A stretch of DNA of 64,000 nt from Rhodopirellula sp. SM50. GTDB taxonomy: Bacteria > Planctomycetota > Planctomycetia > Pirellulales > Pirellulaceae. Position 1 is the stretch's first letter; every line of letters starts with the position of its first letter. The stretch is taken from the NCBI RefSeq assembly GCF_002289565.1, contig NZ_NTFY01000005.1, forward strand, positions 1 to 64,000, written 5' to 3'. This document shows positions 6,405-21,905 of the stretch, piece after piece. A program made the position numbers and the translations under genes. The notes beneath the pieces are model-generated. The model was not told where the DNA came from. It did no database searches and worked only from the letters and a program-made list of their open reading frames with translations.

Positions 6405-7166
6405 ATGCAAATCGATTTTTCGTGGCGTGATCTCGACGAGCTTGCACCCAGGCGAGTTTTCGTTCATTTTGGGGCGCAGGCACCAAGAGAAATTCGAGCC
6501 GGTCGCCCTCTGATGCATTCAAAGGTCTTTTATGCCCGATCTGATGAAGAATGTCGCGTTTGGCTGGGAAGCAATAACCTGACAGTTGCGGCAACCCAAG
6601 GACTTAATTACGAGGCTGCGGTGCGACTTGCGGGTAAAGCCTATGAAGACCCAATGATGGATGCGTTTTATCACCTGATGGCGTGTAAGGAATGGGCAAT
6701 TCCCTACCGACCGGACATGGTGGATGACGATGACGACGGAACCGAGCGATCCAATACTCTGATTGTTCACGCTGAATCTGCCGACCGGTCGCTTTCGACG
6801 CTACCGACATTCGTTCATTTGTGTTTGCCCACACACAGGCACGATAAGGAATTGAACCCCGGCGAACGTGTCGTTCTATTTATCTATCCGGTTGGAACAC
6901 TGGAGGAAAGTGCACTGGATTTAAGAATGTGCACCGCGGTTTATAAAGTAGGGCAAACTGCAAAGAACTTTACCGCAGATCATTCGATAACCGGTGGCAT
7001 TCCCGCGGAATGGCGAGAGGCTGCGTACGTCATCGAGGAATCAATCTTCGAGGATCTTGAGCATAGATTCGAGGGTTCGGGCCAAGCAAAGTGCGCCCAA
7101 TACCGATTGATGAGAATCCCTCTGTCACGTCCCAAGAATTCTCAAGTTGTGTTCGTAGGAAACTGA
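6405..7166 (+). CDS. Phospholipase D-like domain protein (253 aa)
   Basis: Residues 38-58 read HSK followed after a few residues by D47, then WLGSNNLT. This matches the second half of a PLD/HKD nuclease-like active site (HxK...D...GS-N), although the HxK-to-D spacing is longer than the canonical four residues. Only one HKD half is visible, so it acts as a dimer, is N-terminally truncated, or is degenerate. The in-frame stop just before the ATG and the weak ribosome site leave truncation open. The rest has no known domain. It lies 3 nt before the AddB-like gene and is clearly in one operon with it. Role: probably nucleic-acid cleavage or binding alongside the helicase-nuclease pair. Confidence 0.65.
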   Translation: MQIDFSWRDLDELAPRRVFVHFGAQAPREIRAGRPLMHSKVFYARSDEECRVWLGSNNLTVAATQGLNYEAAVRLAGKAYEDPMMDAFYHLMACKEWAIPYRPDMVDDDDDGTERSNTLIVHAESADRSLSTLPTFVHLCLPTHRHDKELNPGERVVLFIYPVGTLEESALDLRMCTAVYKVGQTAKNFTADHSITGGIPAEWREAAYVIEESIFEDLEHRFEGSGQAKCAQYRLMRIPLSRPKNSQVVFVGN

Positions 7167-7169
7167 CAA

Positions 7170-9896
7170 ATGCTTAGCATCGCAAATCTGAATATCCGAC
7201 TAACTCCGGGGCGCGCCGTTTCAAGGGCCGGCGTCGCATCATTTGACCGAATGGTCGGTGGACCGGTGGTGTTGCTGGAATGGCTGGAGACGCAGTTGGG
7301 CCTGCCACAAGTCGATGTGCATCGCGCGTCGCGTGTGATGCAGTATGCTGACGCACTGCGGAAGGTGCAGGACGCTTGCTTCTCACAAAGTCTTGAGGCC
7401 GACGGTTGGGAAACGGCATCGGAGCTGCTCAAGCGACGCGATGAGTTGATATTGTGTGGTTGGGATGGAATCAAGAGCGACGGCTGTCCTCAGATCACAC
7501 GCGACCTGGCAGCTGCCGAAAAGGAATACCGTGGTTCGTTTCCCAGCGAAGCCGAACGATTGACAGCGGTGATGGAGTCGCTCGATGCGGGCCAAGTTTT
7601 GCCACCTCATGAGCTTAAGCTTTACGAGGGCACCGACGTTTGGCCGGCGGCTTGGCAGAGGGTGCTAAACCGCATGAACGTTTTCCCGGCGGAGGCAGTG
7701 CTGCCATTGGCTGGAGAGGGTGGTTCGTTACAGGCGGCCGGTTGTGTCGTGCGTGGACGTCAAGCGGCAGCGTTCGCTTGCGACGAGAGCTTGCGGGTGA
7801 CGAAGGCACGTAGTGAGACGGCGGCAACCGAGTTGGTCAGTTCGGTTTTGGCGGAAGATTTTGCAAGCCATCCACACAAGGTCGCTCGTACGGTTGTGCT
7901 GTGCGAAGACGATTCGTTGGCAGTCCGACTGGACGCTAGCTTGCAGCGTCGCGGGGTGCCGACAATGGGCACGTCGGTGCAGACGAAGGCCCATCCGGTT
8001 TTGCAGGTGTTGCCGCTGGCTTTGGAGCTGTGCTGGGATCCCGTCGATCCGCAATGCCTACTCGATCTTTTGACGCTGCCCGTGATTCCATTTCCGCGTC
8101 CGATCGCGTCGCGACTGGCGCGGGCACTGGGCGAAGAACCGGGGATTGGTAGCGCGGCATGGGACCGTACGTTTGATGAGATTTGCGCTGAGTCGGATCA
8201 AGATCCTGACCAGCCCGGGAAGATGGCAGAGCGGCTTCGCGATTGGCTCTGTACCGAGCGATCACCGGCCAACCTACCGATCGCGACGGCGATGATGGCC
8301 GGTCAATGTCGCAAAGTCGCGACGTGGGCGATCGGACGCGCGACCTTGATTTGGAATGACGAAAGCCGCAGCGATTCGGATGAACAAGTTGCGATCGCTC
8401 TTCGTGAAGCAGCTCGCCAGGCTTCACTGCTTGGTAAACTTGTTGAATTGACGGGCAAAACCATCACACAGCCACAATTGGGCCGATTGCTGGATGAGGT
8501 GATGGACCGCGGTGTCGAATCGCGACCTTGCCCGGTCGCTGATGGTGGGCCTACTTGGGTGCGATCGCTTGCCGAAATCGCTAATTGCTACGATCGTTTG
8601 ATTTGGTTGGGAACCACAACGGCCGATGCACCCGGTAGTTGCTGGTCGGTCAAGCAACTCAGCGACTTTGCCGCAGCCGGTATCCAGCTGGATGACGGAA
8701 CGAACAACCTGCGGTCTCTGCGAGCGGCTGAGGCGAGAGGGCTTTGTTTAGCAAAAGAGTCGCTCCTGGTGGTTGCATTGCCGGCCAGCGAGGAACAGCG
8801 AGTGCATCCGTTGTGGTTGGCGATCGAGCAGAAGATTGCCCAGCATCATCAACCCAATGAATGGAGTCCGCCCGCGATCGAGGACTTGGTAGCTGGCAAT
8901 GATTGTGAAGCACTTTCGCCGTTTGAATTTCGGTGTGAATCAGTAACGGCTCAGCCAGCTCAACCACAACGTCCTGCCTGGGAGATACCGGCAAGCCTGC
9001 TAAAGGATCGCGAGACGGTTTCAGCCTCGGAACTGGAAGATCGATTGGCTTGTCCGCTGAAATGGACGTTTCGGTATCAAGCGGGTTTGCGACCGAGCGG
9101 GATCGCGAGCTTGCCCGATGAGTTTCAACTTCGTGGGAATCTGTTTCACAAGATTCTCGAACGCGTCTTTGGTGGCGACGGAGCACTGCCTGACGCAGCA
9201 GAGGCAGTCCGTTTGGTCGAGACCACGTTCGACGAACGTTTGCCGCTCGATGCCGCTCCGTTGGCTCAACCGGAGAAACGTGTTGAAAGCCAGAGACTGA
9301 AGAACGAGTTGGTGAAGGCGACTCGTTTGTTTGTTGAGACGCTATCGGATGGTGGCTATACGAGCGTGAGAATCGAAGTACCGATCGAGGGAACCGCCTT
9401 CGGGAAAGAGATGCGAGGTTCCATTGACTGCGTGGCGTCGGCCAAAGACGGTCGTGAAGCGGTTGTTGATTTCAAGTACGCCGGTCGTGCGAAGTTCTAT
9501 GACATGATTACCGAGGGGCGATCGGTACAGCTTGCCACGTACGCGTACAGTCGCTGTCAGACCGGTGGGGATTTTCCAGCGGTGGCGTATTTGGTGCTCT
9601 CTGACGGAAAGTTCTTCACGCCATTGGGTAGTCCGCTCGCGGGTGTCGATCCGGCTCAGGTTCTTGACGGTCCATCCATCGAGCGAGTGTGGAACAACTT
9701 TTCACGAGCGATCGTTGACGCGGAGGAGTGGCTTTCAACTGACGCAGCAGTTCCGGCCCGGCCGCTTCAAGTGTTTGATGATTGGCCCCATGGGGCGAAC
9801 ATCGTATTGAAAGAGAAACTGAAGCGGGATGAATCGCAGGGCGTGTGCCGCTACTGCGAGTACACGAAGTTATGCGGCAAGGAGGCGGTCCAATGA
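7170..9896 (+). CDS. AddB-like PD-(D/E)XK nuclease with Fe-S cysteines (908 aa)
   Basis: Begins 3 nt after the PLD-like gene, with AGGA upstream. The C-terminal nuclease domain shows D753 and D767-F-K769 in the GSIDC...VVDFKYAG region, the PD-(D/E)XK core. The four cysteines that hold a 4Fe-4S cluster in AddB nucleases are present as C628 (LACPLKW) and C893-x2-C896-x5-C902. The N-terminal half resembles a helicase-like scaffold without a Walker A motif. Shorter than Bacillus AddB (about 1160 aa). It should partner the downstream AddA-like protein in resecting DNA ends. The stop overlaps the next start as ATGA. Confidence 0.85.
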   Translation: MLSIANLNIRLTPGRAVSRAGVASFDRMVGGPVVLLEWLETQLGLPQVDVHRASRVMQYADALRKVQDACFSQSLEADGWETASELLKRRDELILCGWDGIKSDGCPQITRDLAAAEKEYRGSFPSEAERLTAVMESLDAGQVLPPHELKLYEGTDVWPAAWQRVLNRMNVFPAEAVLPLAGEGGSLQAAGCVVRGRQAAAFACDESLRVTKARSETAATELVSSVLAEDFASHPHKVARTVVLCEDDSLAVRLDASLQRRGVPTMGTSVQTKAHPVLQVLPLALELCWDPVDPQCLLDLLTLPVIPFPRPIASRLARALGEEPGIGSAAWDRTFDEICAESDQDPDQPGKMAERLRDWLCTERSPANLPIATAMMAGQCRKVATWAIGRATLIWNDESRSDSDEQVAIALREAARQASLLGKLVELTGKTITQPQLGRLLDEVMDRGVESRPCPVADGGPTWVRSLAEIANCYDRLIWLGTTTADAPGSCWSVKQLSDFAAAGIQLDDGTNNLRSLRAAEARGLCLAKESLLVVALPASEEQRVHPLWLAIEQKIAQHHQPNEWSPPAIEDLVAGNDCEALSPFEFRCESVTAQPAQPQRPAWEIPASLLKDRETVSASELEDRLACPLKWTFRYQAGLRPSGIASLPDEFQLRGNLFHKILERVFGGDGALPDAAEAVRLVETTFDERLPLDAAPLAQPEKRVESQRLKNELVKATRLFVETLSDGGYTSVRIEVPIEGTAFGKEMRGSIDCVASAKDGREAVVDFKYAGRAKFYDMITEGRSVQLATYAYSRCQTGGDFPAVAYLVLSDGKFFTPLGSPLAGVDPAQVLDGPSIERVWNNFSRAIVDAEEWLSTDAAVPARPLQVFDDWPHGANIVLKEKLKRDESQGVCRYCEYTKLCGKEAVQ

Positions 9897-12800
9897 GCGT
9901 GTCAAACAACACAGTATCGACTCTTGAGCTGATCCGAGCCGGTGCCGGAAGTGGCAAGACATACAACCTTTGCGAAACCGTTGCCGCGGCCGTCCGCGAT
10001 GGCTTGGATCCGGCCCGAATCATGGCGACGACGTTCACTAAGAAAGCGGCGGCGGAACTGAAGGGGCGCATCCAGGCAAAATTGCTTTTGTGGACCGACG
10101 ATCCCGAAGCGAATCAACTGGCCGCGGATCGTTTGGAATTGGCTGCAATTGGAACGGTCCACGGCGTCGCCCATCGCGTGCTGTCACGCTATGCCGTCCA
10201 ACTCGGGCTTTCGACGCGGTTGGAGGTGATGTCGGAACGTGCGGCGGAGCGATTGGTTTCCGAGCAGTTGAACATCCTGCCGCTGGACGGTTGGGAGCAA
10301 CTGGTTTCGTGTGCTCATCGTCTTGGTGTGAAGGACCTGCAGCAGCAACTCTTGAAACTTCTCGACGCGAAACGTAGCAACCAAATCAGCGACGACGGCG
10401 TGCGTCAGCATTTGAAGGATTCTGCGACGAGGGTTTGCCAATTGTTGTCGTCCAGAGAGCCTCTTATGGTCGCATCCTTCGATGACTTTCTGGAGCTGAT
10501 TCAGGAGACGCTACGCGATCCCGCAGTGCAGACATGCACAACGAAGGATTCGATTGCGATTCGCCGAAAGCTGGTGGATCTTCAGTCAATGCGACATGGA
10601 AAATGGGAAGCCTATGCGGAAGTTTTGACACGCGGGTTCAAAGCCGGCAAACGCTCAGGTGCCGACGCTGCACTGGACAATCTGCGCAGCAATGCGGCAG
10701 AAGTCTGCAATCACCGAGATCTCCACGATGATGTTTGCAAATTCTCGGACTTGCTGGCCGAACACGCGATCCTAATCGAAACGGGATGCCGTCAATACAA
10801 GATCGAACGAGGACTGGTCGACTTCACCGACTTGGAAACACTTTTCTTGGAGGCTTTGCTGGGTGATCAATTACCAGCGTTGATCGAGAACGATTTTTCA
10901 TTGGTCATGGTTGATGAATTCCAGGATACGAACCCATTGCAGCTGGCAATCTTCCAAGCCGTCCGTCGGATATCACCACGGCATCGCTGGGTTGGTGATC
11001 CGAAGCAAGCGATTTTTGGCTTTCGAGGCACTGATCCTGGGTTGGTCCGCAAAGTTTGGGAGCAGTTTCGCGATTCCGAGTTGCCGCCGCTGCCCGATAA
11101 CCGACGTAGCCAGAAAGGCTTGGTCCAGTTTGTCGGCACAATCTTTGAACCGATCTTCGGCGAGGACGCAAAGCAGAATCCGGTGAACGAAGAATCGGAT
11201 CGCAACATCGAACGTTGGCTGTTCAAAACGAAGAACCAAAACGACGACGCCAAGGCGCTGGTTGCTGGCATACGCGAGTTGCAAGACGAAGGCTATCGAC
11301 TTGGTGATATCGTCGTCCTCGAGCGGGCCAACGCGGGCGTTGAGAAGCTCGCTATCGAGCTGGAACGCAACGGCATCGACTACTTATTTGAGAATGCCGG
11401 ATTGCTGTCGACCCGTGAGGGCGTATTGACGATGGCTGGTATGCGGTTGGTACTGGACCGGAACGATTCATTAGCCGCCGCGACCATCAAACACTTGCTT
11501 TCCTCGCCAGATGCAACCACTCCCGACTGGATAATCGACCGACTGACTCAACGCTTGGCCGACCGAGAGGCCAACGAAGATTCCAGCAGCGAGACGCGTG
11601 TTTGGAGACAACCATGGGAGGGAGATGCGGATCTGACCAACCTGGAACAAATCGACCGCAAGACTTCTTCGCCCCATTCGGTTTGCAAGCTGGTTTTGGA
11701 AGCTTTGGATTTGCCCAATCGGATTGCAACCTGGGGCGACGTCGCGCAGCGTGCTTGCAATCTAGATTCCATCTTGAAGCACGTTGCCAATTACGAAGAT
11801 CAAATGCTCGGTTCGGGGCAAGCCGCGACGTTGGGCGGAGCAGTTCTGTACCTGGAGCAATTGGCAAAGGAAGGTGAAGACATCAAGTATCCGCCGCTGG
11901 GTCATAACGCAGTGACGATCATGACCTACCACAAGTCAAAGGGCCTGCAGTGGCCAGTCGTGATCCTGAGCGGCCTAAATAGCGATCGCGGGCCGAATAT
12001 GTGGCAGCCATCTGTCAGTGGCGGTGGCGAAGATGTGAACAAGCCGTTGGACGGAAGAGCCATTCGTGCCTGGGCCTGGCCGTTTGGCATGAACGACGCC
12101 CAGCCGCCCCAACGCCGCTCCGGTACAACTCTGGACGATGATGCGGTCGCTTCCCCGGAAGGCGCCGAGCAAGCCGATATCGAAACCGCCGAGAATTTGC
12201 GTCTGCTTTATGTTGGCTGCACACGAGCCGAATCCAAACTGGTTTTCGCGCACCGACGCGGTACTGACAAGTGGCTGCAGCGTTTGCCGAATATCGATGA
12301 GATTCTTCCCGTCGATAGTGATCCCGGCGAGCATTCACTGGCGGGTATAAGTACCAGCTACGTCTTGCGGCATCTTGAAGCGAGCGATCCGTCCGATGCA
12401 GTCCGTGACCAGCCGATCCATTGGTTCGCGCAGGCAAGGGATACTCCAGCGGTTGCGACACCACGATTTCATTCCCCCAGTCAGATTGACGTCGACGAAG
12501 CGGATGATCGTGAACTTGACACCCATGAATTGCCCGGTGGCTCGCATTTCCCAGAAGGCCTCGACCAAGAGCATTATTCCGCCTTCGGCGACGCAGTTCA
12601 CGCCTATTTGGCTGCGTTACCTTCACTGGTGAACGTTGACGACGACCGCAAAATGGTGATAGCCCGGCTATGTTTGTCTGCGTACTCGATGGATGGAAAG
12701 CTTGCTCCGAGTGTTCTGGTTGAAATCGGAGGACGGTTTGCCGACTGGGTGAAAGTGACCTTTCCGGACGCAATATGGCGTGCAGAAGTCCCCGCCGTTG

Positions 12801-13045
12801 CTGAGCGCGACGCAGGTGGTTCGTATCATGGCACGCTGGATTTGATCTTGGAAATGCCCGACGGGGCAGTTGTCGTAATCGACCACAAAAGCGCGCCCAT
12901 TCGTCGGACCAATTGTGAAGCCAAGGCCAGACAATACATCGCACAAGTGGATGCCTACAACGAAATGCTCAGCCAGCAAGGATGTCAGATTGCTTCAACC
13001 TGGATCCACTTCCCGCTAGCAGGTGTTGTGGTGAATATTCGGTAG
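9893..13045 (+). CDS. AddA-like UvrD helicase-nuclease (1050 aa)
   Basis: The start is set at ATG 9893-9895, overlapping the AddB-like stop. Superfamily 1A helicase motifs are in order: Walker A GAGSGKT (K22), motif Ia TFTKKAAAELK, motif II VDEFQDT, motif III VGDPKQAIFGFRG, motif V TYHKSKGLQWPVV and motif VI LLYVGCTRA. The C-terminus carries a second nuclease site, D983 (GTLDLIL) and D997-H-K999. With two nucleases and one active helicase the pair matches AddAB architecture: unwinding and degrading double-strand ends in repair or against foreign DNA. The unusual point is the operon partner, a PLD-like protein. Confidence 0.9.
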   Translation: MSVSNNTVSTLELIRAGAGSGKTYNLCETVAAAVRDGLDPARIMATTFTKKAAAELKGRIQAKLLLWTDDPEANQLAADRLELAAIGTVHGVAHRVLSRYAVQLGLSTRLEVMSERAAERLVSEQLNILPLDGWEQLVSCAHRLGVKDLQQQLLKLLDAKRSNQISDDGVRQHLKDSATRVCQLLSSREPLMVASFDDFLELIQETLRDPAVQTCTTKDSIAIRRKLVDLQSMRHGKWEAYAEVLTRGFKAGKRSGADAALDNLRSNAAEVCNHRDLHDDVCKFSDLLAEHAILIETGCRQYKIERGLVDFTDLETLFLEALLGDQLPALIENDFSLVMVDEFQDTNPLQLAIFQAVRRISPRHRWVGDPKQAIFGFRGTDPGLVRKVWEQFRDSELPPLPDNRRSQKGLVQFVGTIFEPIFGEDAKQNPVNEESDRNIERWLFKTKNQNDDAKALVAGIRELQDEGYRLGDIVVLERANAGVEKLAIELERNGIDYLFENAGLLSTREGVLTMAGMRLVLDRNDSLAAATIKHLLSSPDATTPDWIIDRLTQRLADREANEDSSSETRVWRQPWEGDADLTNLEQIDRKTSSPHSVCKLVLEALDLPNRIATWGDVAQRACNLDSILKHVANYEDQMLGSGQAATLGGAVLYLEQLAKEGEDIKYPPLGHNAVTIMTYHKSKGLQWPVVILSGLNSDRGPNMWQPSVSGGGEDVNKPLDGRAIRAWAWPFGMNDAQPPQRRSGTTLDDDAVASPEGAEQADIETAENLRLLYVGCTRAESKLVFAHRRGTDKWLQRLPNIDEILPVDSDPGEHSLAGISTSYVLRHLEASDPSDAVRDQPIHWFAQARDTPAVATPRFHSPSQIDVDEADDRELDTHELPGGSHFPEGLDQEHYSAFGDAVHAYLAALPSLVNVDDDRKMVIARLCLSAYSMDGKLAPSVLVEIGGRFADWVKVTFPDAIWRAEVPAVAERDAGGSYHGTLDLILEMPDGAVVVIDHKSAPIRRTNCEAKARQYIAQVDAYNEMLSQQGCQIASTWIHFPLAGVVVNIR

Positions 13046-13171: not shown

Positions 13172-13950
13172 TTACTTGTTCAGCAGACGACGGCGGGCTC
13201 GGCGGGTTCTCTTGCGGTCGGCGGCTTGGCGATGCTCGTCCGCTCGGTACTCGCGAATCGATTCGGGATGCTCTGCTTTCCACGCCTGGGGAGTCATCGC
13301 TGATCAGTTCGTCTCGCCAGCGAGCGCTCTTCGTAAGACATCGTCCAAGTACGCTCGCACGTCCAAGTCGTTGCGTATCGCGCTGCCGGTAATCGTAAGT
13401 AAGTTCGCCGCACGCTCGCCCTCAGCCACCGAACCTTTGAACATCCAGTTCTTCCTTCCCGTGGCAACTCGCCTCATCAGCTGCTCGCAGTCGTTGTTGT
13501 CGATCGGAATCGTCGCGTCCTCGGTGAATCGGCGCAACGCTTCCCAGTGACGACGTACGTAACCCGTCGCCACGCCGAGATTATTTTTGGCGAGAACCGA
13601 CGGCGACTGTATCGATTCGCTGTCGAGGTACTCCGCGATCAAGTCAAGAACGTGACGCGATAAACTCTGGCGTCATGCGAGGCGCTCGGCATCGTCAAGG
13701 TCCTTGATCTGGTCCTCCACCTCGTAAAGCATCCGTATCAATGACTCTAGCTTGGCCACTTGCACAGGGAATGCACTGCGGCACTCGTCGATCTTGCGGC
13801 GCGCATGCGCCCAACATGCCGCGAACGTGACTCGCGAGTCACATCGGATATCAACCTTTTGAAAACCTGACCAACAGTCTCCTACCAAGTTGCCTTTGAA
13901 ATCGTCGAGCACGTCATCCGGGCCGTCGCGATGACGACTGGCCGACACCG
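13172..13950 (-). pseudogene. Decayed IS66 TnpC transposase, C-terminal half
   Basis: In one frame (13673 to about 13950) it reads SRHRDGP, NLVGDCWSGF and CWAHARRKIDE. After a frameshift near 13650 it continues as IAEYLDSES and TIPIDNNDCEQLMRRVATGRK. A TGA near 13303 then interrupts it before the tail TPQAWKAEHPESIREYRADE. So it has at least one frameshift and one stop, and lacks the N-terminal half and tnpA/tnpB. It is not the same subtype as the complete element at 2221-5200. It lies between the nuclease-helicase operon and the ubiquitin-like cluster. Confidence 0.8.
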
Positions 13951-14099
13951 GTGCAGGCCATGGACAGCCCGGGCAGGAGGAAACTGAACGCAATTTCGGC
14001 GTTCCGAGACGCCCCAATCTGTTTCGTACTCGGCACGGACCGATAAAGCTGATTCACAACGACCAGATTCATTGAAGCGTCGGATCGCCGACGGTTGTG

Positions 14100-14342: not shown

Positions 14343-14768
14343 CTAATGCCCCGGTAGGTTCGCTGGATCTGAGCGAGGCGAAGCCTGGGGAAGCCGCTTG
14401 GATTGGGTCGAGAGCATCTCGACGAGTACCGGATCGGCCTTGGCTTCTTCGATCTGCTCGACCTTGCCTTTGGCGAGCAGCAACAGGATCAACGCAAGTG
14501 GCAGGCAGCACGCGAATAGGATGCCTGTTGCTTCGATGGAATTGGCGATGATTGGGTCGCTACGTTCGCGTTCGGACCAGTGCCGGCGGTCCGATTCGAG
14601 ATCGTCTCGGCCCTGGCTGAGGATTTCCTGCTGATCAAGCACCCGTTGTTGGGCGTCGAAGACTTGCTCAACCTGCTGGTCGGTTAGGACCGGTGGTTCG
14701 CGTTTACATCCGCCGAGTATCAGCGGCATAAGCATCATCGTCGCGATTGTTATGAACTTTGCTTTCAT
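14343..14768 (-). CDS. Small lipoprotein with second membrane segment (141 aa)
   Basis: The start at ATG 14766-14768 is fixed by GAGGAGG a few bases upstream. The N-terminus is a lipoprotein signal with lipobox LGGC (Cys ~20). A charged, coiled-coil-prone stretch follows (residues ~30-72), then a hydrophobic segment GILFACCLPLALILLLLA (~83-100) and a polar tail. Its first 65 nt overlap the end of the upstream small membrane gene, so the two are probably coupled. Last gene of the ubiquitin-like cluster and a candidate membrane anchor or effector. No family recognised. Confidence 0.65.
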   Translation of the reverse strand: MKAKFITIATMMLMPLILGGCKREPPVLTDQQVEQVFDAQQRVLDQQEILSQGRDDLESDRRHWSERERSDPIIANSIEATGILFACCLPLALILLLLAKGKVEQIEEAKADPVLVEMLSTQSKRLPQASPRSDPANLPGH

Positions 14769-14919
14769 CGTCCTCCTCTTGGTTTTGGGGTTGGTTGTGG
14801 AGTAGATGATTCAGGATTTGACGCAATCCTCGAATCTGTGTTCTCGACTGGATCACCAGCAAGGCCGTGAAGGTCAATGCCAGTGCCAGAGTGAAAACGA
14901 CAAGATGGACAGGCTGCAT
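14704..14919 (-). CDS. Small single-pass membrane protein (71 aa)
   Basis: The ATG at 14917-14919 is chosen because GAGAGGA lies about 9 nt upstream; an upstream ATG at 14943 lacks one. A hydrophobic N-terminal segment (residues ~5-24, VVFTLALALTFTALLVIQ) precedes an acidic, Asn/Gln-rich tail. The 3' end overlaps the lipoprotein gene by 65 nt in another frame. No family recognised. Position suggests it works with the lipoprotein at the membrane. Confidence 0.55.
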   Translation of the reverse strand: MQPVHLVVFTLALALTFTALLVIQSRTQIRGLRQILNHLLHNQPQNQEEDDESKVHNNRDDDAYAADTRRM

Positions 14920-14964
14920 GTTTGTTTTCCTCTCCGCGAACAAATGGGGCGCGGGTCGAAGCCG

Positions 14965-15375
14965 TTATGCGGCGTCCCGGGATTCTTTGAGCTCGCCGAT
15001 CAGGCTGGACGCTTGACGAATCGTGAGTGCCGAAACGTCGGCGGCACCGTAACGGTCTTGAAGCAGGTGATCGAGATCCACGCTTTTGCGCCGCGCAATC
15101 GCCCTGATGGCGGCGACTTGCTTTTCGGTTGCCAAGCGTGGCCTGCTGTCACCGTTGTGGGATCCATCTTGTGGGCGCGATTGTCCCACGGCTTGTCGTT
15201 TAACTGGAGAGGAGGAATTCGCTCGCCCAGAGACTGCGTCGACGCAGCGTCTGACAGCCTGATGAAGCCGTGACTCGGCATCGGCGTCAAAATTGTCCAG
15301 CTGGAGTTCAGCCAGACAAGTCGTCGTGGTTCCGTCCCGGCAGGGCGAGCCGGAAACACTGATTGAGAGTTTCAT
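14965..15375 (-). CDS. Small protein with C-terminal helical domain (136 aa)
   Basis: Starts at ATG 15373-15375 with GGAG 5 nt upstream, 45 nt after the E1-like gene. Residues 1-45 look like a small beta-rich domain, residues ~45-80 are a low-complexity linker, and the end (from ATEKQVAAIRAIARRKSVD to the last 10 residues) is a compact helical module. I recall a similar module at the C-terminus of phage recombination and single-strand-binding-type proteins, but that link is not certain. It could be a substrate or DNA-recruiting factor of the cluster. Confidence 0.6.
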   Translation of the reverse strand: MKLSISVSGSPCRDGTTTTCLAELQLDNFDADAESRLHQAVRRCVDAVSGRANSSSPVKRQAVGQSRPQDGSHNGDSRPRLATEKQVAAIRAIARRKSVDLDHLLQDRYGAADVSALTIRQASSLIGELKESRDAA

Positions 15376-15420: not shown

Positions 15421-16077
15421 CTAAGTAGGCATCATTTCGGATGCGAGCAGGTTGACGCTCAGGTCGCGTTCGACGGGAATGCTCCTCAGCCAGCGTGTCA
15501 GCTGGTGGACCATCAACGAAGCCGCGAGACTTGCGGCGTAGACGGTGCTGGCCGTGGTGCAACTGCCCGTGAGGGCTTCCGACGCCGCGAACAGCGTCGT
15601 TTCGTAGTGCTCGTCGTGTTTCGGATCATCCGAGGCGAGCACCCTGACAACTTCGCCACGCATCCGACCGTCGATCCACAAGTCGCACTGAGATTTCATG
15701 CGTCGCCAGATGGCGGCCCGTGATGAAATCGAATCGACACAGGAAAAGACGATCTCGCCGTGATCCTGCCGTGGCCGGAAGCGGTCCTTCACAACAGCGA
15801 CGTCGATCGACGAATCAATCAGACGGACATCGCCAGCCGTCGCCTCCACTTTTGGCTGGCCGATCTGGTCGTGTCGGTAACCTTGGGTAGTGACGTTGGT
15901 CAGCTCAACGTGGTCGAAATCGATCAACTGCAACCGTGGTACGCCGATCGAGGCCAGTTGCAATGCGACCTGTCGGCCGACGGCACCGACGCCGATGATT
16001 GTGACCCTTTGGCCTGCGAGACCTTCTCGGCGTACCAGCCCGGATTGCCGCGTAAAGCGATCTGCCGGCCCGGTCAT
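15421..16077 (-). CDS. ThiF/E1-like ubiquitin-activating family enzyme (218 aa)
   Basis: The ATG 16075-16077 overlaps the JAB stop (ATGA), so this start is preferred over the upstream one. Residues 27-34 (IIGVGAVG) form the Rossmann nucleotide loop, with acidic and Asn/Gln residues [10 protein letters not shown] at 52-61, as in E1/ThiF/MoeB enzymes that adenylate a ubiquitin-like C-terminus. C173 in GSCTTAST is the likely catalytic cysteine. No MoeB-type zinc cysteines are visible, and it is short, a minimal adenylation domain. It sits behind Ubl, E2-RING and JAB genes with overlapping ends. Expected role: activate the Ubl encoded at 17769 and hand it to the E2-like protein. Confidence 0.85.
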
Positions 16078-16784
16078 GACGCAACCCACTCGCTGGCTTC
16101 CCACGGGTTGTCCTCCCAGGATGATCCTGGGGCGGGCGAATCCGAGCGGAGGTCACTGTCACGCTGGTTACTGACCGGGAACATGTCGTGTCGCATCGCA
16201 AACGGATCCAACACGGTCACACGGCGTGCGTATTCAGCCTCCCACAGGTCGTGATCAGCCGCTTCAAAGGGCATTGAATAGTCGATCATCCGCCGCAGTC
16301 GCGTGTTGGCACCAGGGCCGGTATTGAATCTCAGCCGCCCGTACGTGGCTCCGTGCTTGGCCAAGATGAACATCACTGCCCAGTCCGCCGAGCCGAAACA
16401 ACGCTGGAATGTTTCTTCGTCGGTGCCACTGGGGGACGGACAGCTGCCTGGATGGGTGTGAATCCAGACACGAGCAAATTGCTCTGGGGAGCGTCCCGCA
16501 TCGACTTGATCGTCGAAGAAATCCGCCACCGACGCGTCGTCGAACTCGACAGAAACCGGTGTGCAGACCTGATCGATCATCACGATGTCCTCGATCAGCA
16601 ACAGGTCGTGTTCGTTGCTGATCCCGAACCCGCCGACTTCGGTTCCACCGAAATCACGCAAGAACTTCAGTTTCGCCCACGCGTAGGGGCTGAATCGAAG
16701 GGCAGGTCTCTTGCTGCGTCTCCGGCTGGGCCTCGGATAGCGTTTCTGTCTGCTCTTCGTTCGTTTCCTGGTCAAGGCAATCAT
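16074..16784 (-). CDS. JAB/JAMM metalloprotease, deubiquitinase-like (236 aa)
   Basis: The full JAMM signature is present: E49 (GTEVGGF), H109-x-H111, S119 and D122, that is HxHx7SxxD with upstream Glu, the zinc site of isopeptidases that remove ubiquitin-like proteins. The first ~28 residues are strongly basic ([18 protein letters not shown]). The start at ATG 16784 has GGAG about 10 nt upstream and overlaps the end of the E2-RING gene by 131 nt; a later start would leave the domain intact but lose the ribosome site. Expected role: trim the Ubl precursor and/or reverse conjugation. The stop overlaps the E1 start. Confidence 0.88.
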
Positions 16785-17772
16785 CGCATTGGTTCTCCGT
16801 TAAACAGTCTTTGCAAAAAGTTTTGTCGCAGCGGTCGCATGATTCCATGCAGCCGTTGCAGTAGTAGGATCTGCAGCCTTCACACATCGATGTGCAGTTG
16901 TGACAGAACGACTCGTCGCAACCATCACAGCCGCAGCTACAGTCGCTGCACGTTCGGCGACCGCAGCGGTCGCAAACGCACGTGTCGTCTTCGTCGACGT
17001 TGGCACCACAATCGCCACATTCGACGCCGGACCAGTCATTGAGGCTGATGTAGGCACTGCCGGGGTTGTAGGTCTGCAGGATCTGGCGAACGATCAGGAA
17101 GAAGTCGTACAGACGGCCGTCGGCGAGCGCGTGTTTGATCGGCTGATGACCGTCACCCTCGCAGAGCGTTTCCGATTGCACGTGAGGGTGCGTGGTTGCG
17201 TCACAGCTGACTGCCGGCTGCGGATCTTTGGCGATCACACGGTAGGGAGTGGATTGACCGAGGTAGCGAAGTTCCAGTTCGATCTCGAAAGGCCCCAACA
17301 GAACCCCTTCCAGTTCGATCGGTTCGGTGGTCACGCTGATGGTGCCGCCCTTCACATTCAGCTCAACGGATTCAAAGTTGTCTTCTAATCCCGCCAAGTC
17401 GCAGATGATGTCCGTCAGACGCCATCGAACGCTGGGCTCAGCATTCTCGGCCAACGCGTCAAGTGATCGGTAAACCGATTCACGGAGGGTTTTCAGCGTC
17501 TTCACGAGATCACGATGGATCCGATCGGCCGCGAGCTTCCATCCGCGTGAGACGGCAGCGGGTTCCAGCCGCTGTAAACGCTGGAGTTTTTGCAGGGTCG
17601 CGTCGGGGACTGGCGTCACTTGTCGCCGGGGCGAATCTCTGCGTACCGCCGCCAGAATCGTCTCCGCCATCCGATACCGCTTCCGAGCAAGTTTGTGAGC
17701 GAGTCTGCGAGCTTGAATCTGAGCAGAGCGATCCGCCGTCTTGTCCTGTGTCCGTCCTTGTGAGGAGTTCAC
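16654..17772 (-). CDS. E2-like conjugating domain fused to RING-like zinc domain (372 aa)
   Basis: Starts at GTG 17770-17772, overlapping the Ubl stop (GTGA). Residues 1-115 are helical and basic. Residues ~120-245 fit a UBC/E2 core: beta strands ending [11 protein letters not shown], a partly conserved TPYRVI, then HPHV at 195-198 followed six residues later by C204 (ETLCEG), as in the E2 pattern HPN...C, and a helix with a [13 protein letters not shown] turn. Residues 252-332 hold over twenty cysteines in CxxC pairs, a RING-like or binuclear treble-clef region. The last 40 residues are acidic and lie over the JAB start. The E2 call rests on pattern reading, not a search. Such a fusion would join E2 and E3 roles. 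Confidence 0.7.
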
Positions 17773-17990
17773 GATGCTCCCTCGATCTTGGTCGGCGTGA
17801 TCGAGATGCGGTCGCCTTCCTGCAAGACTTGGTCGCGGGGCACCGGCAGACGATTCACCCGGATCAGATAGTTCGATTCCTGGGCAGCGCCGATACGTTG
17901 GTTGAACAGGTCTTGGACAGAAGTCTCGTCCTGAACGTCGATGTAGTCGGCGAAACCGGCACCGTCGTTGTTGATCAGTAGAACTTTCAT
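17769..17990 (-). CDS. Ubiquitin-like beta-grasp protein (73 aa)
   Basis: The ATG at 17988-17990 has AGGAAAA upstream. The small acidic protein alternates strands and one helix as in the ThiS/MoaD/ubiquitin fold: MKVLLINN strand, [10 protein letters not shown] helix, [10 protein letters not shown] strand, [14 protein letters not shown] end. The C-terminus is G71-A-S rather than a terminal Gly-Gly, so removal of two residues by the JAB protease would expose a terminal glycine. It opens a block of overlapping genes (Ubl, E2-RING, JAB, E1), which is strong context for a protein modifier. It could instead be a sulphur carrier, but nearby genes do not suggest that. Confidence 0.78.
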
Positions 17991-18076
17991 GGGTTGGTTT
18001 TCCTGTGAGTTGGAGTGGGGTTTGTCACCGCCCTCGACCAGGCCCGCGTCTTGCGAACCCGGCGACGACCACGACG

Positions 18077-18122
18077 AAAGAAACGATGACCGGCGGCACG
18101 CTCGGTGCAGCGCCGGTCATCG
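18077..18122 (-). terminator. 12-bp perfect hairpin before the Ubl gene
   Basis: Arms 18084-18095 and 18111-18122 pair perfectly (CGATGACCGGCG), and on the minus strand a TTTCTTTC tract follows. It lies 51 nt after the 68-aa gene stop and about 90 nt before the Ubl start, so the Ubl block probably has its own promoter or is attenuated. Confidence 0.65.
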
Positions 18123-18173
18123 CGTAGCGTGCTGATTTGTGGTTGCGATCGATGGCAACCAGTTTGCCAGCAC

Positions 18174-18380
18174 CTAGAACTCGAAAGACAACTCCGCATT
18201 GATGTCATCCTGTGCGGCATGAAATGCGTCCCAGTCGATGACGTGGGGACCGAGGTCTTCGGCTTCCGGGTCGCTGATCGAGATGTCGGGATCGGCGATC
18301 AGAAAGCCGAGACGCTTGATGGTGGCGACGGTCTCACCCGTCGCGCGAGAAACGCTGCGATAAAGGTCTGCTTGAAGCAT
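18174..18380 (-). CDS. Small acidic protein (68 aa), unknown
   Basis: The ATG at 18378-18380 is preceded by GGAG about 11 nt upstream. The N-terminal third (SRATGETVATIKRLGF) could form a short helix-turn-helix; the rest is acidic and ends ELSFEF. Flanked by two terminator-like hairpins, so it may be transcribed alone. No family is recognised; a small regulator or Ubl target is possible. Confidence 0.5.
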   Translation of the reverse strand: MLQADLYRSVSRATGETVATIKRLGFLIADPDISISDPEAEDLGPHVIDWDAFHAAQDDINAELSFEF

Positions 18381-18417
18381 CGAAAGGGTTCTCCGAAAAA
18401 GTGGGGAGCTAGAAACG

Positions 18418-18464
18418 AAAAAAGCCCTCGCCGGTCAGCTGGTAGCGCTGACCCGAAAGGGCTT
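18418..18464 (-). terminator. Nested hairpin with T-run after the 88-aa gene
   Basis: Outer arms 18422-18428/18458-18464 and inner arms 18433-18439/18447-18453. On the minus strand it is followed by a run of six T. It lies 23 nt past the stop at 18487: a good intrinsic terminator. Confidence 0.7.
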
Positions 18465-18486
18465 CTGGAAGCAGGTAACAAAAGAC

Positions 18487-18753
18487 TCAGTCAATCTGGA
18501 AGGCTTCGCCGGGTTCCGGCAGAAGCCAATACTCGTGCAGCCATGCGACTTCTGCTCGCAAGGCGTAACTGCGGTTTGCGAACGGTCCCAGCTTGGGTCC
18601 GCCGACAGGTGATAGATCGGCCGTCCACTGGCCGTTCTGGTCGGGCTCCACGTGGGAGCCGCGTTGGATCTGCAACGTGCCCATGACGGACAGGTCCACT
18701 TCTTCGCCGTAGACGCAGCGGCAGTTGCCGGCGGGAGTGATGATCAGCTCCAT
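18487..18753 (-). CDS. Conserved-looking small protein (88 aa), unknown
   Basis: Starts 6 nt after the stop of the DUF3150-like gene, so the two are cotranscribed. The middle part reads RGSHVEPDQNGQWTADLSPV followed by a GPFANRSYALRAE segment, a compact beta-strand-rich layout; the end is acidic. I recognise the HVEP...W.ADLSPV...GPF style from small planctomycete hypothetical proteins but can name no function. Followed by an intrinsic terminator. Confidence 0.6.
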   Translation of the reverse strand: MELIITPAGNCRCVYGEEVDLSVMGTLQIQRGSHVEPDQNGQWTADLSPVGGPKLGPFANRSYALRAEVAWLHEYWLLPEPGEAFQID

Positions 18754-18759
18754 GCCGAT

Positions 18760-19701
18760 TCACTTCGTACGCCGCAAAATGTTGCGGCGGGGGCGATCGA
18801 CCATCAGGCCATCCAGGGACGACTGCACGGCGGCCAGCTGTCCGGTGATACGTTGACGCAGTGACTCGCTGTCACGCAGGCTTTGCGGCGCGACACCGTC
18901 CACGACGCGGCGAGCTCGATCCACAACCTGATCCAGCTCTTCGTTGGAGCGGATATTGAGCCGCTGGAAGCGATCAAAGAATTCTGCAAAGTTTTCGATC
19001 GCAGAATCTCGGAACACCTTGGGCTTGCCGTCATCGTTGCCGGTCAGCCGTTCGGAGAGGTGCTCGACCATCTTGTTGAGTTCTTCGATGAACGCCGCCT
19101 CGGCCAATTGCACCGCTTCGTCGAATCGGCTTTTGACGCGATCACATTCCTGCTGGTACAGCTCCGGATTGAGCCGGCGCAGGTAGTCGGGCGGCTCCAC
19201 GCTGGGGAAGTCCCAGCCGATCTCGAATAAGCCCCGCAGCGTGTCCGGGTAATCGCTTTCGCAATACAAATCTCCCAGCCGATCGCGGGCTTCGTATTTC
19301 AGCTCGTCGAAGCGGGCGTCCAGGACTGCGACGGCCTCGGCCAGTTCGTCCCGAAAACCCTGCATCCGGGCATCGATCTGATCGAGCGACGCTTGGGGCA
19401 CCAGCCGAATCCCCGGTTCGGGGAACGGCAACGTCGTGCCCTTAAAATACGCCGTCGCTTGGGTGCGAACCGACGTGACGGCGCGAAAGCTCGCGTCGCC
19501 GGTGTCGATCAGTTTCTTGCCGGCGCTGATGTACTTGCCTTCGGCGTGGAACGTGTCCGCCGCCAACGCCTTTTGTTCGGACGACAGCGACTTGCGTGTC
19601 CCGAACCAGGTGAACGACAACCGCATCGCAGCCATCGTGGTTCGAAGTTTACCGCCGTGGTCGCTGACCGACGCGGGCGCGTCTTCCAGTGTTTGTGGCA
19701 T
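18760..19701 (-). CDS. DUF3150-like coiled-coil protein (313 aa)
   Basis: The ATG at 19699-19701 has AAGGA upstream; the longer upstream frame has none. The N-terminus (MRLSFTWFGTRKSL, then ATAYFKGTTLPF and GIRLVPQASLDQID) resembles DUF3150 proteins, which often sit beside AAA ATPases. The rest is mostly helical and charged (residues ~140-290) and likely forms coiled coils. No catalytic motif is seen. It follows the Ycf46-like ATPase gene after a terminator-like hairpin and is coupled to the 88-aa gene. It may be a structural partner of the ATPase. The family assignment is from memory of the pattern. Confidence 0.55.
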   Translation of the reverse strand: MPQTLEDAPASVSDHGGKLRTTMAAMRLSFTWFGTRKSLSSEQKALAADTFHAEGKYISAGKKLIDTGDASFRAVTSVRTQATAYFKGTTLPFPEPGIRLVPQASLDQIDARMQGFRDELAEAVAVLDARFDELKYEARDRLGDLYCESDYPDTLRGLFEIGWDFPSVEPPDYLRRLNPELYQQECDRVKSRFDEAVQLAEAAFIEELNKMVEHLSERLTGNDDGKPKVFRDSAIENFAEFFDRFQRLNIRSNEELDQVVDRARRVVDGVAPQSLRDSESLRQRITGQLAAVQSSLDGLMVDRPRRNILRRTK

Positions 19702-19731
19702 GGCATGATTTCCTTGGGTGATGGGTAGAAA

Positions 19732-19764
19732 CGAAAACAGCCCTCCGCGATGACGGGGGCTGTT
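19732..19764 (-). terminator. Hairpin with TTTT between AAA ATPase and DUF3150-like genes
   Basis: Arms 19736-19743 and 19757-19764 pair as AACAGCCC/GGGCTGTT and are followed on the minus strand by TTTTCGTTTC. It lies 27 nt past the ATPase stop. Terminator or attenuator. Confidence 0.6.
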
Positions 19765-19790
19765 GGAAAAACAAAGTGTTGTAGAACGCG

Positions 19791-21281
19791 TCAGTTTTCT
19801 GACGGTTCGCTGCGAGAGACGCTCCGTCGGGACGTACGGCGTTTGGGGCGATGCTGATAGATGCCGGACTGATCCGCATCCAAACAGCGTCCCGAAGCCC
19901 ACTTTCGAAGCCTGTCGATCGACTCCGCGGATGTCACCGCCACGGGGACGACGTTGCCTGCTGCCTGGATCACCGGGACATCGAGCAATGCCGCCAGGCG
20001 GCAGCACGCCCGAATTTCAGCTCCGGTCCAGTTGTCGTCGTCAGGTTTTCGCTGGTCGGGCTCCAATGAGAACAATTCCAGGTACAGCGACCAGATCGTG
20101 TCCTTCTGTTGGCGGCCCGGTAGATCGACGAAAAAGACACCGTCGAATCGTTCGCTACGGCTGAATTCCGGCGGCAGCTTGGAGGCGTCGTTGCTGGTGC
20201 AGACCACGAACACGTCGGACTCGTGATCATTGAGCCAGCTCAAGAACGTGCCAAACATCCGCGATGAGACGCCGCTGTCGTTGCTGCCTGAGCCGCCGAC
20301 GCCCGAGAACGCCTTTTCGGCTTCGTCGATCATCAGCACACAGGGAGCCATCGCATCGATAATCTGCAGTGCTTGACGCGTGCGTTCTTCCGACTGGCCC
20401 ACGAGCGAACCCATCAGGCTGCCGACGTCCAGCTGCAAGACCGGCCGACCGACTTCTTTCCCGAGGGCCTTGCAGAACTCGCTCTTGCCGCAGCCCGGTG
20501 GGGACAACAGCAGCACACCACGCGGACGAACCAGCTTGTTGGTCTGGTTCGCACGCAGCAGTGAACGCCGTGTGAAGGCTTTCAGCGACGACAGGCCACC
20601 GAGGGCACTGAAGTCCGCACTGCCGCGATACAGCTGCAGTGTGCCGGCCTTGGTCAGCATCTGAGACTTCTGCTGCCACAGCGTTTCGGCCGTCAGCTGA
20701 TTGTCTCGCACCAGCGACAGCGCAAACGCGTTCTCGGCTTCAAACCGTGTCAGTCCGGTCGCGGCGTCCAAGACGCGTTCGAACAGGGCTTCTTCGGGCT
20801 GTTCACCGGGCTCGGTGGCGATTGCCGTGGCGATTTCACGCAACTGCTCACGCGTCGGGAGTTCGTGGTCGATCACGACGAACAGTTTTTCGAGTTCCAC
20901 TGGCAGCTGCACGACCGGCGCCAAAACGACCAGAATCGTCCGGGTTTGCTTGCCGGTGATGACCTGATGGGCGATCGCCTGGATGATCTCCGCGGACTGC
21001 AGGAACCGGTGGAAATTCTCCAGGACGACGACTGTCGTGTCGTCCCCATCGGACAGCAGACTGGCAACACCGACGGCAGCGAGCGGGTCACTGACGTCCT
21101 GTTCGACGGTTTGGCCGCCACAGCGCAATCCGGCGGCGATATTCCAGCTGGCCATTTTCCAGCCCTCTCGCTGGCACAGCTGGCTGATTTCATTGATCGC
21201 ATCGACATGCTCGTGTGATGTGATCCAGATGCCGGAGAAGCACGCGCGGACGTACTCCTCCATTCGCTTCGATAGCGACAT
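19791..21281 (-). CDS. Ycf46-like AAA+ ATPase (496 aa)
   Basis: AGGAGG lies just before the ATG at 21279-21281. The N-terminal ~230 residues match the degenerate ATPase-like half of Ycf46 proteins (VVVLENFHRFL, ILVVLAPVVQLPVELEKLF, VIDHELP). The C-terminal AAA domain has Walker A PPGCGKS (K266), Walker B CVLMIDE (E320), sensor 1 CTSND (361-365) and arginine-finger candidates R374/R378. The last 70 residues are basic. The AAA half suggests remodelling of protein complexes. Its neighbours DUF1257 (Ycf35-like) and DUF2997 are the usual companions. Here the set precedes a ubiquitin-like cassette, hinting at an unfoldase linked to modified proteins; that is inference. Confidence 0.85.
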   Translation of the reverse strand: MSLSKRMEEYVRACFSGIWITSHEHVDAINEISQLCQREGWKMASWNIAAGLRCGGQTVEQDVSDPLAAVGVASLLSDGDDTTVVVLENFHRFLQSAEIIQAIAHQVITGKQTRTILVVLAPVVQLPVELEKLFVVIDHELPTREQLREIATAIATEPGEQPEEALFERVLDAATGLTRFEAENAFALSLVRDNQLTAETLWQQKSQMLTKAGTLQLYRGSADFSALGGLSSLKAFTRRSLLRANQTNKLVRPRGVLLLSPPGCGKSEFCKALGKEVGRPVLQLDVGSLMGSLVGQSEERTRQALQIIDAMAPCVLMIDEAEKAFSGVGGSGSNDSGVSSRMFGTFLSWLNDHESDVFVVCTSNDASKLPPEFSRSERFDGVFFVDLPGRQQKDTIWSLYLELFSLEPDQRKPDDDNWTGAEIRACCRLAALLDVPVIQAAGNVVPVAVTSAESIDRLRKWASGRCLDADQSGIYQHRPKRRTSRRSVSRSEPSEN

Positions 21282-21351
21282 GGTTTCCTCCTGGGATAGT
21301 TTGGTGACGTTGGCGGCAGAATGCGGCCAAGAAGACGACTCAAGGTTGCGA

Positions 21352-21540
21352 TTACTCGCTGGCCCGCTGTTGCTGCTCGGTGGCAGCCTGATGAAACTCG
21401 GGTTTCAGTTGTTCGCTGGACTGCTGGCCCAGAGCCTGCAAGAGGGCCCGACTTGCCTGGCGGCAGTCGCTTCCGGTGTAGCCGTTGGTTTCCACGCGGG
21501 TTTTGCCGTCGGGTGCGACGATGACTTCGATGGTCTTCAC
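21352..21540 (-). CDS. DUF2997 family protein (62 aa)
   Basis: Starts at GTG 21538-21540, overlapping the DUF1257 stop as GTGA. The fold signature is short: IEVIVAPDGKTRVETNGYTG, then a Cys (SDC) and a helix ending in LLQALG, as in DUF2997 proteins; the C-terminal 20 residues are a polar tail. Such proteins are commonly encoded beside DUF1257 in bacteria and cyanobacteria. Function unknown. Coupled translation suggests a complex with the DUF1257 protein. Confidence 0.8.
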   Translation of the reverse strand: MKTIEVIVAPDGKTRVETNGYTGSDCRQASRALLQALGQQSSEQLKPEFHQAATEQQQRASE

Positions 21541-21905
21541 GCTGCACCTCCGACGTTGACGGTGACTTTGATGGAGCCATCGGCCAACTGCTGTTCGGTG
21601 ACCGAATGGCCCTGTTTCCGGGCCTCCAGCTTGGCCCGTTCAACTGCGTAGGCCTGGATGAACTCATCGAGCCGTTTCGGGTCTCCCCAGTGGCCCTGGT
21701 AGTTGTCGTACCGGAGGTTTCCGCTGGGCAGATCACAGACGACCGGGTACCGCCACTCACGTAGCCGGACGCCCAGGCCTGACACTGTCTGGCTAAACAG
21801 TTTGAAGGTGCCCTCAACGGGCGGCTGAAGCCCCAGACGATTGCAGCCGGCCCGGACGGCCGACGCATCGCGGACTTCGGTCTTGATTTCGACGATGTGC
21901 GACAT
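21537..21905 (-). CDS. DUF1257 / Ycf35-like protein (122 aa)
   Basis: First gene of the cluster; ATG 21903-21905 with GGAG 8 nt upstream. The sequence MSHIVEIKTEVRDASAVRAG with a later WRYPVVCDLPSG and YDNYQGHWGD matches the DUF1257 family, the bacterial relatives of plastid Ycf35. The end (VTEQQLADGSIKVTVNVGG) is a typical closing strand pair. Function unknown; in many genomes it is linked to DUF2997 and Ycf46-like ATPases, as here. Confidence 0.85.
   Translation of the reverse strand: MSHIVEIKTEVRDASAVRAGCNRLGLQPPVEGTFKLFSQTVSGLGVRLREWRYPVVCDLPSGNLRYDNYQGHWGDPKRLDEFIQAYAVERAKLEARKQGHSVTEQQLADGSIKVTVNVGGAA

Follow-up and report, generated by a model that had tools for sequence, protein, structure and literature searches.

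A probable ubiquitin-like conjugation cassette with a cysteine-rich E2-like protein on planctomycete chromosomes and viral contigs

Bacterial operons that bring together genes for a ubiquitin-like protein (Ubl), an activating enzyme (E1), a conjugating-enzyme-like protein (E2) and a JAB peptidase were described as types 6a-6e by Iyer et al. 2006 (PMC1779556); in type 6d the four are separate genes, and many of the operons lie on mobile elements. A later paper (PMC4197634), citing Burroughs 2011, places Caldiarchaeum-related operons in Planctomycetes, Actinobacteria and Acidobacteria. Here we describe a ten-gene cassette that holds the same four genes, located at 15421-21905 on the minus strand of the first 64,000 nucleotides of contig NZ_NTFY01000005.1 of Rhodopirellula sp. 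SM50; this whole 64,000-nucleotide stretch is called the window. The cassette is probably a self-contained system for Ubl conjugation and de-conjugation that is carried by mobile elements and phages.

The likeness to types 6a-6e lies in the Ubl, E1, E2-like and JAB genes standing together. The type 6d E2 lacks a histidine before its cysteine, whereas the window family has an invariant HPH, and none of the five types, as given in the extract of PMC1779556, has an E2 cysteine array, a Ycf46 or DUF2997 partner or a planctomycete member. Membership of the PRTRC system (type 6d) was rejected (TIGR03736, 28.4 bits against a cut-off of 144.75). The Caldiarchaeum subterraneum operon (PMC5654768) is alike in its E1, E2 and zinc protein and in a Ubl tail cut by an Rpn11-type JAMM peptidase, archaeal Rpn11 being known to trim the ubiquitin precursor; its RING protein, however, is separate and its Ubl ends in Gly-Gly plus a nine-residue tail, whereas in the window the E2 carries the zinc part and the Ubl end is Gly-Ala. 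The cassette may belong to the same family as the planctomycete RING-containing operons cited from Burroughs et al. 2011. A preliminary description of this DNA, made from the letters alone, had considered the fused E2 form beside Ycf35/Ycf46 genes in a planctomycete to be new. The fusion is indeed missing from the types in the extract of PMC1779556, but planctomycete operons of the E1/E2/RING type had already been reported (PMC4197634), and the form is not peculiar to this genome, since the family is found on planctomycete chromosomes and on viral contigs. A term search of open-access literature returned no description of the cassette or its viral copies, in a limited library that does not establish absence, and the relevant words were absent from two jumbo-phage reviews by the same kind of search.

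The CBASS (cyclic-oligonucleotide-based antiphage signalling) Cap2/Cap3, Bil and Bub systems (PMC10097602, PMC11354881, PMC13373217) share the E1, E2 and JAB chemistry. Cap2 has E1 and E2 in one chain, with the cGAS enzyme as the tag, while the window has a free-standing minimal E1 and a separate E2; the cGAS that Cap2 conjugates is joined by its C-terminal Gly or Ala (PMC10097602), a precedent for a Ubl end other than Gly-Gly. BilA is built of two beta-grasp domains and BilB carries a CEHH motif, against a one-domain Ubl and an HPH-Cys site in the window. Membership of Bil was rejected, a single 73-aa Ubl and an E1 of 218-227 aa standing against the two-domain BilA and the large two-domain BilD, and membership of CBASS type II or Bub was rejected as E1 and E2 are separate genes here. 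The cyanobacterial DUF2997-DUF1257(ycf35)-fed7 cluster (PMC4284462) has the same small-protein pair, with no Ubl genes named in the extract. Eukaryotic RWD-RING proteins and E2-E3 hybrids are similar in placing a ubiquitin-conjugating (UBC) fold beside a zinc domain on one chain. RWD domains have no catalytic cysteine; in the window family this cysteine is invariant.

The preliminary description covered four genes with overlapping ends at 15421-17990; the coordinates and every named residue are present in the sequence, but the conserved unit continues to 21905. Eleven further copies were found in five other planctomycete genomes, six of them in one genome, all with identical gene order as far as each locus reaches. 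The genes for E2, JAB, E1, Ubl, p68, p88, the H protein and the AAA+ ATPase are in all 11 loci (p68 is weak in L025 and L026, the ATPase gene is split in L024, and L025 begins inside it), while ycf35 and DUF2997 are in nine. The features of the window cassette, in order of transcription, are as follows.

21537..21905, minus strand: DUF1257/Ycf35-like protein, 122 aa (PF06868 at E 0.0019, below cut-off; in 9/11 loci)
21352..21540, minus strand: DUF2997 protein, 62 aa (PF11211 at E 1e-15)
19791..21281, minus strand: Ycf46-type AAA+ ATPase, 496 aa (PF00004 at E 3.6e-26)
18760..19701, minus strand: H protein, helical, 313 aa with the ATG at 19701 as start (DUF3150 matched weakly, at E 0.012)
18487..18753, minus strand: p88, small uncharacterised cassette protein (11/11 loci; no Pfam family)
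18174..18380, minus strand: p68, small uncharacterised cassette protein (11/11 loci by hidden Markov model, two weak; no Pfam family)
17769..17990, minus strand: Ubl, 73 aa, ThiS-type beta-grasp by sequence (C-terminus ...TPTKIEGAS)
16654..17772, minus strand: E2-like protein, 372 aa, GTG start, with a helical N-terminal part and a C-terminal cysteine array
17038..17418, minus strand: UBC-like (E2) domain, residues about 119-245 (predicted helix and strand order)
17161..17190, minus strand: E2 active-site stretch, H195-P196-H197 to C204 (conserved HPH and Cys)
16777..17019, minus strand: putative zinc-binding array, residues 252-332, ten CxxC pairs (20 cysteines)
16074..16784, minus strand: JAMM/JAB metallopeptidase, 236 aa (PF14464 below cut-off; conserved active site)
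15421..16077, minus strand: minimal ThiF-type E1 from the ATG; a longer GTG open reading frame (ORF) runs to 16104 (PF00899 at E 2.4e-26)

Ubl and E2 overlap by GTGA and JAB and E1 by ATGA, and the E2 and JAB ORFs share 131 nt (window 16654-16784, ORF coordinates). In this last overlap the acidic tail of E2 is read in another frame than the basic N-terminus of JAB; the overlap is positive in 76/78 loci and mostly 60-150 nt by the starts chosen, the largest values perhaps reflecting wrong starts. A terminator-like hairpin with a T run was seen by eye between the AAA+ and H genes (window 19701-19800).

The middle of the 372-aa protein had been read as an E2 core with HPHV at 195-198 and C204. 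These residues are in place; H195, P196, H197 and C204 are invariant where alignable, and HPH with the cysteine stands in all 84 chromosomal rows that reach the site. An AlphaFold2 model built from 62 sequences (pLDDT 87.8, mostly >90 in the UBC-like part; pTM 0.70) has long N-terminal helices, a helix at 119-132, strands at 135-181, a strand at 193-195 and helices at 206-217 and 221-233, followed at the C-terminus by cysteines in short hairpins. The model predicts the UBC order of helix, four-strand meander, active-site strand and helices; the predicted fold and the conservation of C204 both agree with the earlier reading. By title, E2 entries make up 45 of the best 50 rows of a Foldseek search of the model against the PDB; the best E2 row has E 0.052 and probability 0.94, and both rows at the head of the list are chain e of yeast ribosome quality control (RQC) complexes. 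When viral relatives were included, the E2 profile aligned with human UBE2D2 in hhalign with a score of 26.1 (P 8.9e-4, probability 23%), a score reached by 0/150 shuffles and 0/250 unrelated fragments, and the alignment is in register: HPH falls on HPN, the two cysteines coincide, and TYNxxSPY lies against PNPDDPL. Among the viral E2 ORFs, 51/57 carry HP[HN]-x-C-x-G, four of them with HPN itself, and six of the 57 are without the HP[HN]-Cys pattern; one ORF with HPN also gave a sub-threshold UQ_con match at the active site. Both sequence and model speak for an E2-like domain whose HPH and Cys are invariant. On the viral contigs L141, L125 and L188 a single cassette holds two or three E2-type ORFs.

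The E2 protein has 26 cysteines and ten CxxC motifs in all, of which residues 252-332 hold 20 cysteines in ten pairs. All 20 are kept in 71/86 chromosomal rows and at least 18 in 79/86. A classical RING has eight ligands, with a histidine; the array has no histidine ligand pattern, and Pfam found no RING in any of 62 members of the E2 protein. Profile matches to the PDB were weak, the best being the Midline-1 B-box (E 0.0043), followed by TFIIH p44 (E 0.0089) and FYVE/RING chains, and unrelated sorts of phage protein are among the structural matches. Counted after the active site, CxxC motifs number from 0 (L144, L145) to 21 in viral relatives, and in L177/L178 the E2-protein match is shared between two ORFs. 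Of the E2-RING fusion proposed earlier, the joining of E2 and cysteine array in one chain stands, while RING/E3 is an interpretation of the cysteines, which number 20 and in which Pfam found no RING; because of the variable CxxC count and the weak profile matches, the protein is better described as an E2 with a variable, treble-clef-flavoured zinc array. The array may have an E3-like role. The CxxC array pattern was also observed in planctomycete proteins that have no E2 part (G050, G131, G149 and others).

Sequence evidence supports the Ubl as a beta-grasp protein, as first described, and places it with the ThiS/MoaD type. The window protein matches PF02597 (ThiS) at E 2.8e-4, just under the cut-off; 34/37 relatives match ThiS at E <= 0.1 (best 1.3e-6), and hhalign gives 86% against E. 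coli ThiS. The end [KR][IV][ED]G is found in 91/91 chromosomal rows and is followed by Ala in 85 and by Gly in three. Thirteen rows stop one residue past this Gly and the others extend by 1 to several tens of residues; two viral ORFs (L137, L139) hold two Ubl copies head to tail, each with a Gly-Ala end. The tail of 0 to tens of residues behind Gly-Ala, together with the tandem ORFs, points to trimming of the Ubl. By the pattern used, 5/49 viral rows are without a regular Gly end, and a few pattern matches with very long tails may be false.

The JAMM peptidase has the full site reported earlier, E49, H109, H111, S119 and D122 (E ... H-x-H-x7-S-x2-D), which is kept in 77-78/79 chromosomal rows (the exceptions being a row with a gap and another with an X) and in 53/53 viral rows. 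All nine sequences matched by its profile in the PDB at E <= 0.1 are Rpn11 or N11-like (best 7.6e-4). The minimal ThiF-type E1 is likewise as described: G38, K85, D124 and C182 are conserved, the last being C173 when counted from the ATG at 16077; the protein is 218-227 aa long. The catalytic cysteine is found in 73/75 chromosomal rows (two gaps) and 51/52 viral rows (one gap), and the lysine in 52/52 viral rows. PDB relatives, judged from the best 60 of 76 matches, include PaaA, ThiF, MoeB, UBA5 and BubCD. Conservation of the active-site and array residues across the rows shows that these features are not due to chance.

The Ycf35 and Ycf46 genes, mentioned earlier as neighbours, form part of the cassette in many relatives, together with DUF2997. 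The AAA+ ATPase, which we take to be Ycf46 from its N-terminal part, has Walker and arginine-finger columns invariant in 22 rows, and its PDB matches (best 60 of 266) are led, through the AAA domain, by AFG2 and Cdc48/p97. The helical model of the H protein (pLDDT 80) found no fold match in the PDB, and p88 has conserved G, W and E columns. In Phycisphaerae-type loci (L045, L061, L068, L073, L098 and others) a GHKL-type ATPase and a DUF2958 protein replace AAA and H upstream of the Ubl gene; these identities, like those of the recombinases given below, come from a scan of one member of each cluster.

The window E2 protein matches 8/246 genomes of the phylum at E <= 0.001, and the E2 profile matches 32/392 genomes, 14 of them at full length (E < 1e-80) and 18 weakly, mainly over the cysteine array. 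As the E2 alignment has no stretch conserved enough for a contig scan, genome contigs were scanned with the Ubl alignment; the survey reaches near relatives of the Ubl and may miss divergent cassettes on chromosomes of other phyla. Relatives were found at 126 places, of which the best 80, nearly all titled Planctomycetota, were kept. Where a locus reaches that far, the E2-like gene is in the block in most cases (74/80). All four core genes, in the order Ubl-E2-JAB-E1, stand in 39/42 chromosomal loci whose flanks measure 7 kb or more upstream and 3.2 kb or more downstream, and 23 also have AAA and H. L027, from a Chloroflexota metagenome-assembled genome (MAG), and L043, from an Emcibacter MAG, are probably misbinned, as both group among planctomycete rows in the tree. 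A divergent E2-JAB-E1 row in another planctomycete genome (L112, G386) was found through the E2 profile.

Recombination genes are found in 33/91 chromosomal loci (serine recombinase 26, tyrosine integrase 9, Tni transposition genes 5). Six recombinases like that of L028 occur in seven genomes, and three of them have a cassette less than 10 kb away (at 2.2, 5.0 and 8.8 kb), which is far above chance because the 16 cassettes in some 48.8 Mb place only about 0.7% of the sequence at such a distance. Of the nine genomes listed for genus g6, five gave a full-length match and four none, genomes without a match being listed in part. Plasmid searches gave, with the Ubl, only matches of at most 60% identity and E > 0.1 among those listed and, with the E1, only partial and distant ThiF-type matches.

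Scans of IMG/VR with the Ubl, E1 and JAB alignments gave 1, 46, 34 and 5 loci, on 66 distinct contigs, of which 45, several longer than 160 kb, have all four core genes (three of these are near-duplicates: L120/L121, L134/L135 and L177/L178). Twelve loci with only a distant E1 or E1 and JAB (L150-L160, L194) were set aside. In the remaining set of 54 contigs, E2, JAB and E1 occur together in 49, and of the 45 four-gene contigs 17 also have AAA and 14 also H. A terminase-family match (PF03237 or phrog_2) was found in 22/48 viral records, several on contigs longer than 160 kb. Terminase_6N matches 11/29 records at E <= 0.001 (9/29 over the Pfam cut-off), phrog_2, which we take to be the terminase large subunit, 18/48, and phrog_12, presumably a portal, 2/48. 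Terminase_6C was found in 0/24 records, Gp23 in 0/29 and the T4 portal in 0/27; the last two negatives say little, as the controls for both were silent. L134 has phage families on its flanks (SbcC-like, helicase, primase, UvsX-like). A 631-aa ORF of L111, a terminase at first sight, has no match in PHROGs.

Annotated phages (INPHARED) hold only distant E1 relatives, in crAss001 and in Flavobacterium, Xanthomonas and Erwinia phages, with no match there to the E2 and JAB profiles. In crAss001 (L201, 6247-8645) the E1 relative adjoins a gene annotated as a metalloprotease, and neither profile has a match there. In a tree of E1 and JAB (126 rows, quick method), all 74 chromosomal and 9 viral rows form one group of 83 with an SH-aLRT of 98, and 43 viral rows lie outside it; the root is a midpoint, and the sets are uneven and were sampled by different patterns.

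Around the window cassette, IS66 transposase pieces lie in two frames at 13304-14017, next to it, and a longer IS66 transposase ORF lies farther off, at 2543-4324; beside the cassette no recombinase was identified, only the IS66 pieces, which lie downstream. A lipoprotein-like gene downstream of E1 (14343-14943) has relatives in L017, L018, L040, L047, L072, L084 and L091, which in several cassette loci stand ahead of ycf35. The 136-aa ORF behind E1 (14965-15375) has a weak GemA match and relatives near two Phycisphaerae-type cassettes (L106, L093). Adjoining genes for a PD-(D/E)XK nuclease and a UvrD-type helicase, AddAB-like, lie at 6405-13045 on the plus strand, with a small ORF upstream that is weakly like ZacB.

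From the genes and their order, the conserved active sites, the predicted E2 layout and the presence on viral contigs, we infer the chemistry, targets and role as follows. The JAMM peptidase would trim the Ubl precursor at its conserved K-[IV]-[ED]-Gly-Ala end; the E1 would adenylate the Ubl, hold it on C182 (C173) and hand it on to the E2 at C204. The zinc array that forms part of the E2 chain might hold the target or stimulate transfer, an E3-like task in cis. Removal of the tag may also fall to the JAMM peptidase, and the Cdc48-like Ycf46 ATPase with the H protein, where present, could remodel tagged targets. Of the complete ubiquitin-like cycle seen by the preliminary description, Ubl, E2-like protein, JAMM peptidase and E1, with their active sites, are supported; the E3-like part is a possible reading of the array, in which Pfam found no RING. 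Use by phages and mobile elements is supported by location, and we think the likeliest use is in conflict between mobile elements, phages and hosts, by tagging of host, rival-phage or own proteins. Tentatively, and with somewhat more doubt than confidence, the full pathway (Ubl, E1, E2 with zinc array, Rpn11-like JAMM and often a Cdc48-like AAA+) may be an accessory module of large tailed phages, from whose pool planctomycete chromosomes and their mobile elements would have drawn, the tag being joined through Gly-Ala or through a Gly bared by removal of Ala.

Several results weigh against a conjugation cassette carried by phages. No row of the E2 model reached E <= 0.001 in Foldseek against the PDB; Pfam, NCBIfam and PADLOC found no family in the window E2 protein; two PDB profile searches with E2 alignments returned no E2, and the first E2 profile, made without viral relatives, gave an hhalign probability of 0.1% against UBE2D2. 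The Pfam scan of the 62 members likewise gave no E2 family, save one weak FANCL UBC-like match. For the Ubl, the PDB profile search had no convincing match, the C-terminus is Gly-Ala with a variable tail and not Gly-Gly, and even Gly-Ala is missing in L167 and L168. AAA and H are both absent from 16/42 well-flanked chromosomal loci, for which reason we regard them as optional. On the viral side, 26/48 records have no terminase match, and phrog_2 also matches 11/14 control genomes.

One rival reading is a sulfur-carrier or cofactor pathway, with a ThiS/MoaD-like Ubl, a ThiF-type E1, JAB trimming and an E2-like protein that is only a scaffold, and by sequence the Ubl and E1 are indeed nearest ThiS and ThiF/MoeB. 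We hold this to be very improbable: the E2-like gene, with its invariant HPH and Cys, is in the block in most loci that reach that far (74/80), none of the ten cassette genes codes for a sulfurtransferase or belongs to a biosynthetic pathway, and the Ubl ends in Gly-Ala, where ThiS ends in Gly-Gly. That most of the viral contigs are wrongly assigned DNA of bacteria or plasmids, and the cassette an ordinary bacterial system, is unlikely, if less so. It would account for the records without a terminase match, for the absence of Terminase_6C, Gp23 and T4 portal (Gp23 and portal controls being silent), for isolated phages holding only a distant E1 and for L115, whose full planctomycete-type cassette could be host DNA; against it are the terminase-family matches in 22/48 records, 9/29 over the Pfam cut-off and several on contigs longer than 160 kb, and the phage families around L134. 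Close to an even prospect, by comparison, is that conjugation is real and the array is not E3-like, binding a target, nucleic acid or metal while the E2 acts alone. L144 and L145 lack the array and others have a very long one (0 to 21 CxxC); it recurs without E2 in other planctomycete proteins, 18/32 genome matches covering mainly the array, and has structural matches among phage proteins of other kinds; on the other side, at least 18/20 cysteines are kept in 79/86 chromosomal rows, and weak profile matches lead to RING, B-box and p44 chains.

Conjugation and de-conjugation of a Ubl by a mobile cassette is the reading we prefer, and it bears on both bacteria and their phages. Known bacterial Ubl systems (CBASS Cap2, Bil) act against phages, whereas here what looks like a full set, with every active site conserved, is on viral contigs and on mobile parts of planctomycete chromosomes; if the cassette works, phages themselves would use ubiquitin-like tagging. 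The joined E2 and zinc array would be a minimal example from nature of the coming together of E2 and E3-like parts, and the Gly-Ala end makes one ask if Gly-Gly is a requirement. For the Ycf46 family, known above all from the genomes of plastids and cyanobacteria, the partnership offers a function that can be tested, and the cassette may represent a tagging toolkit common to phages and bacteria.

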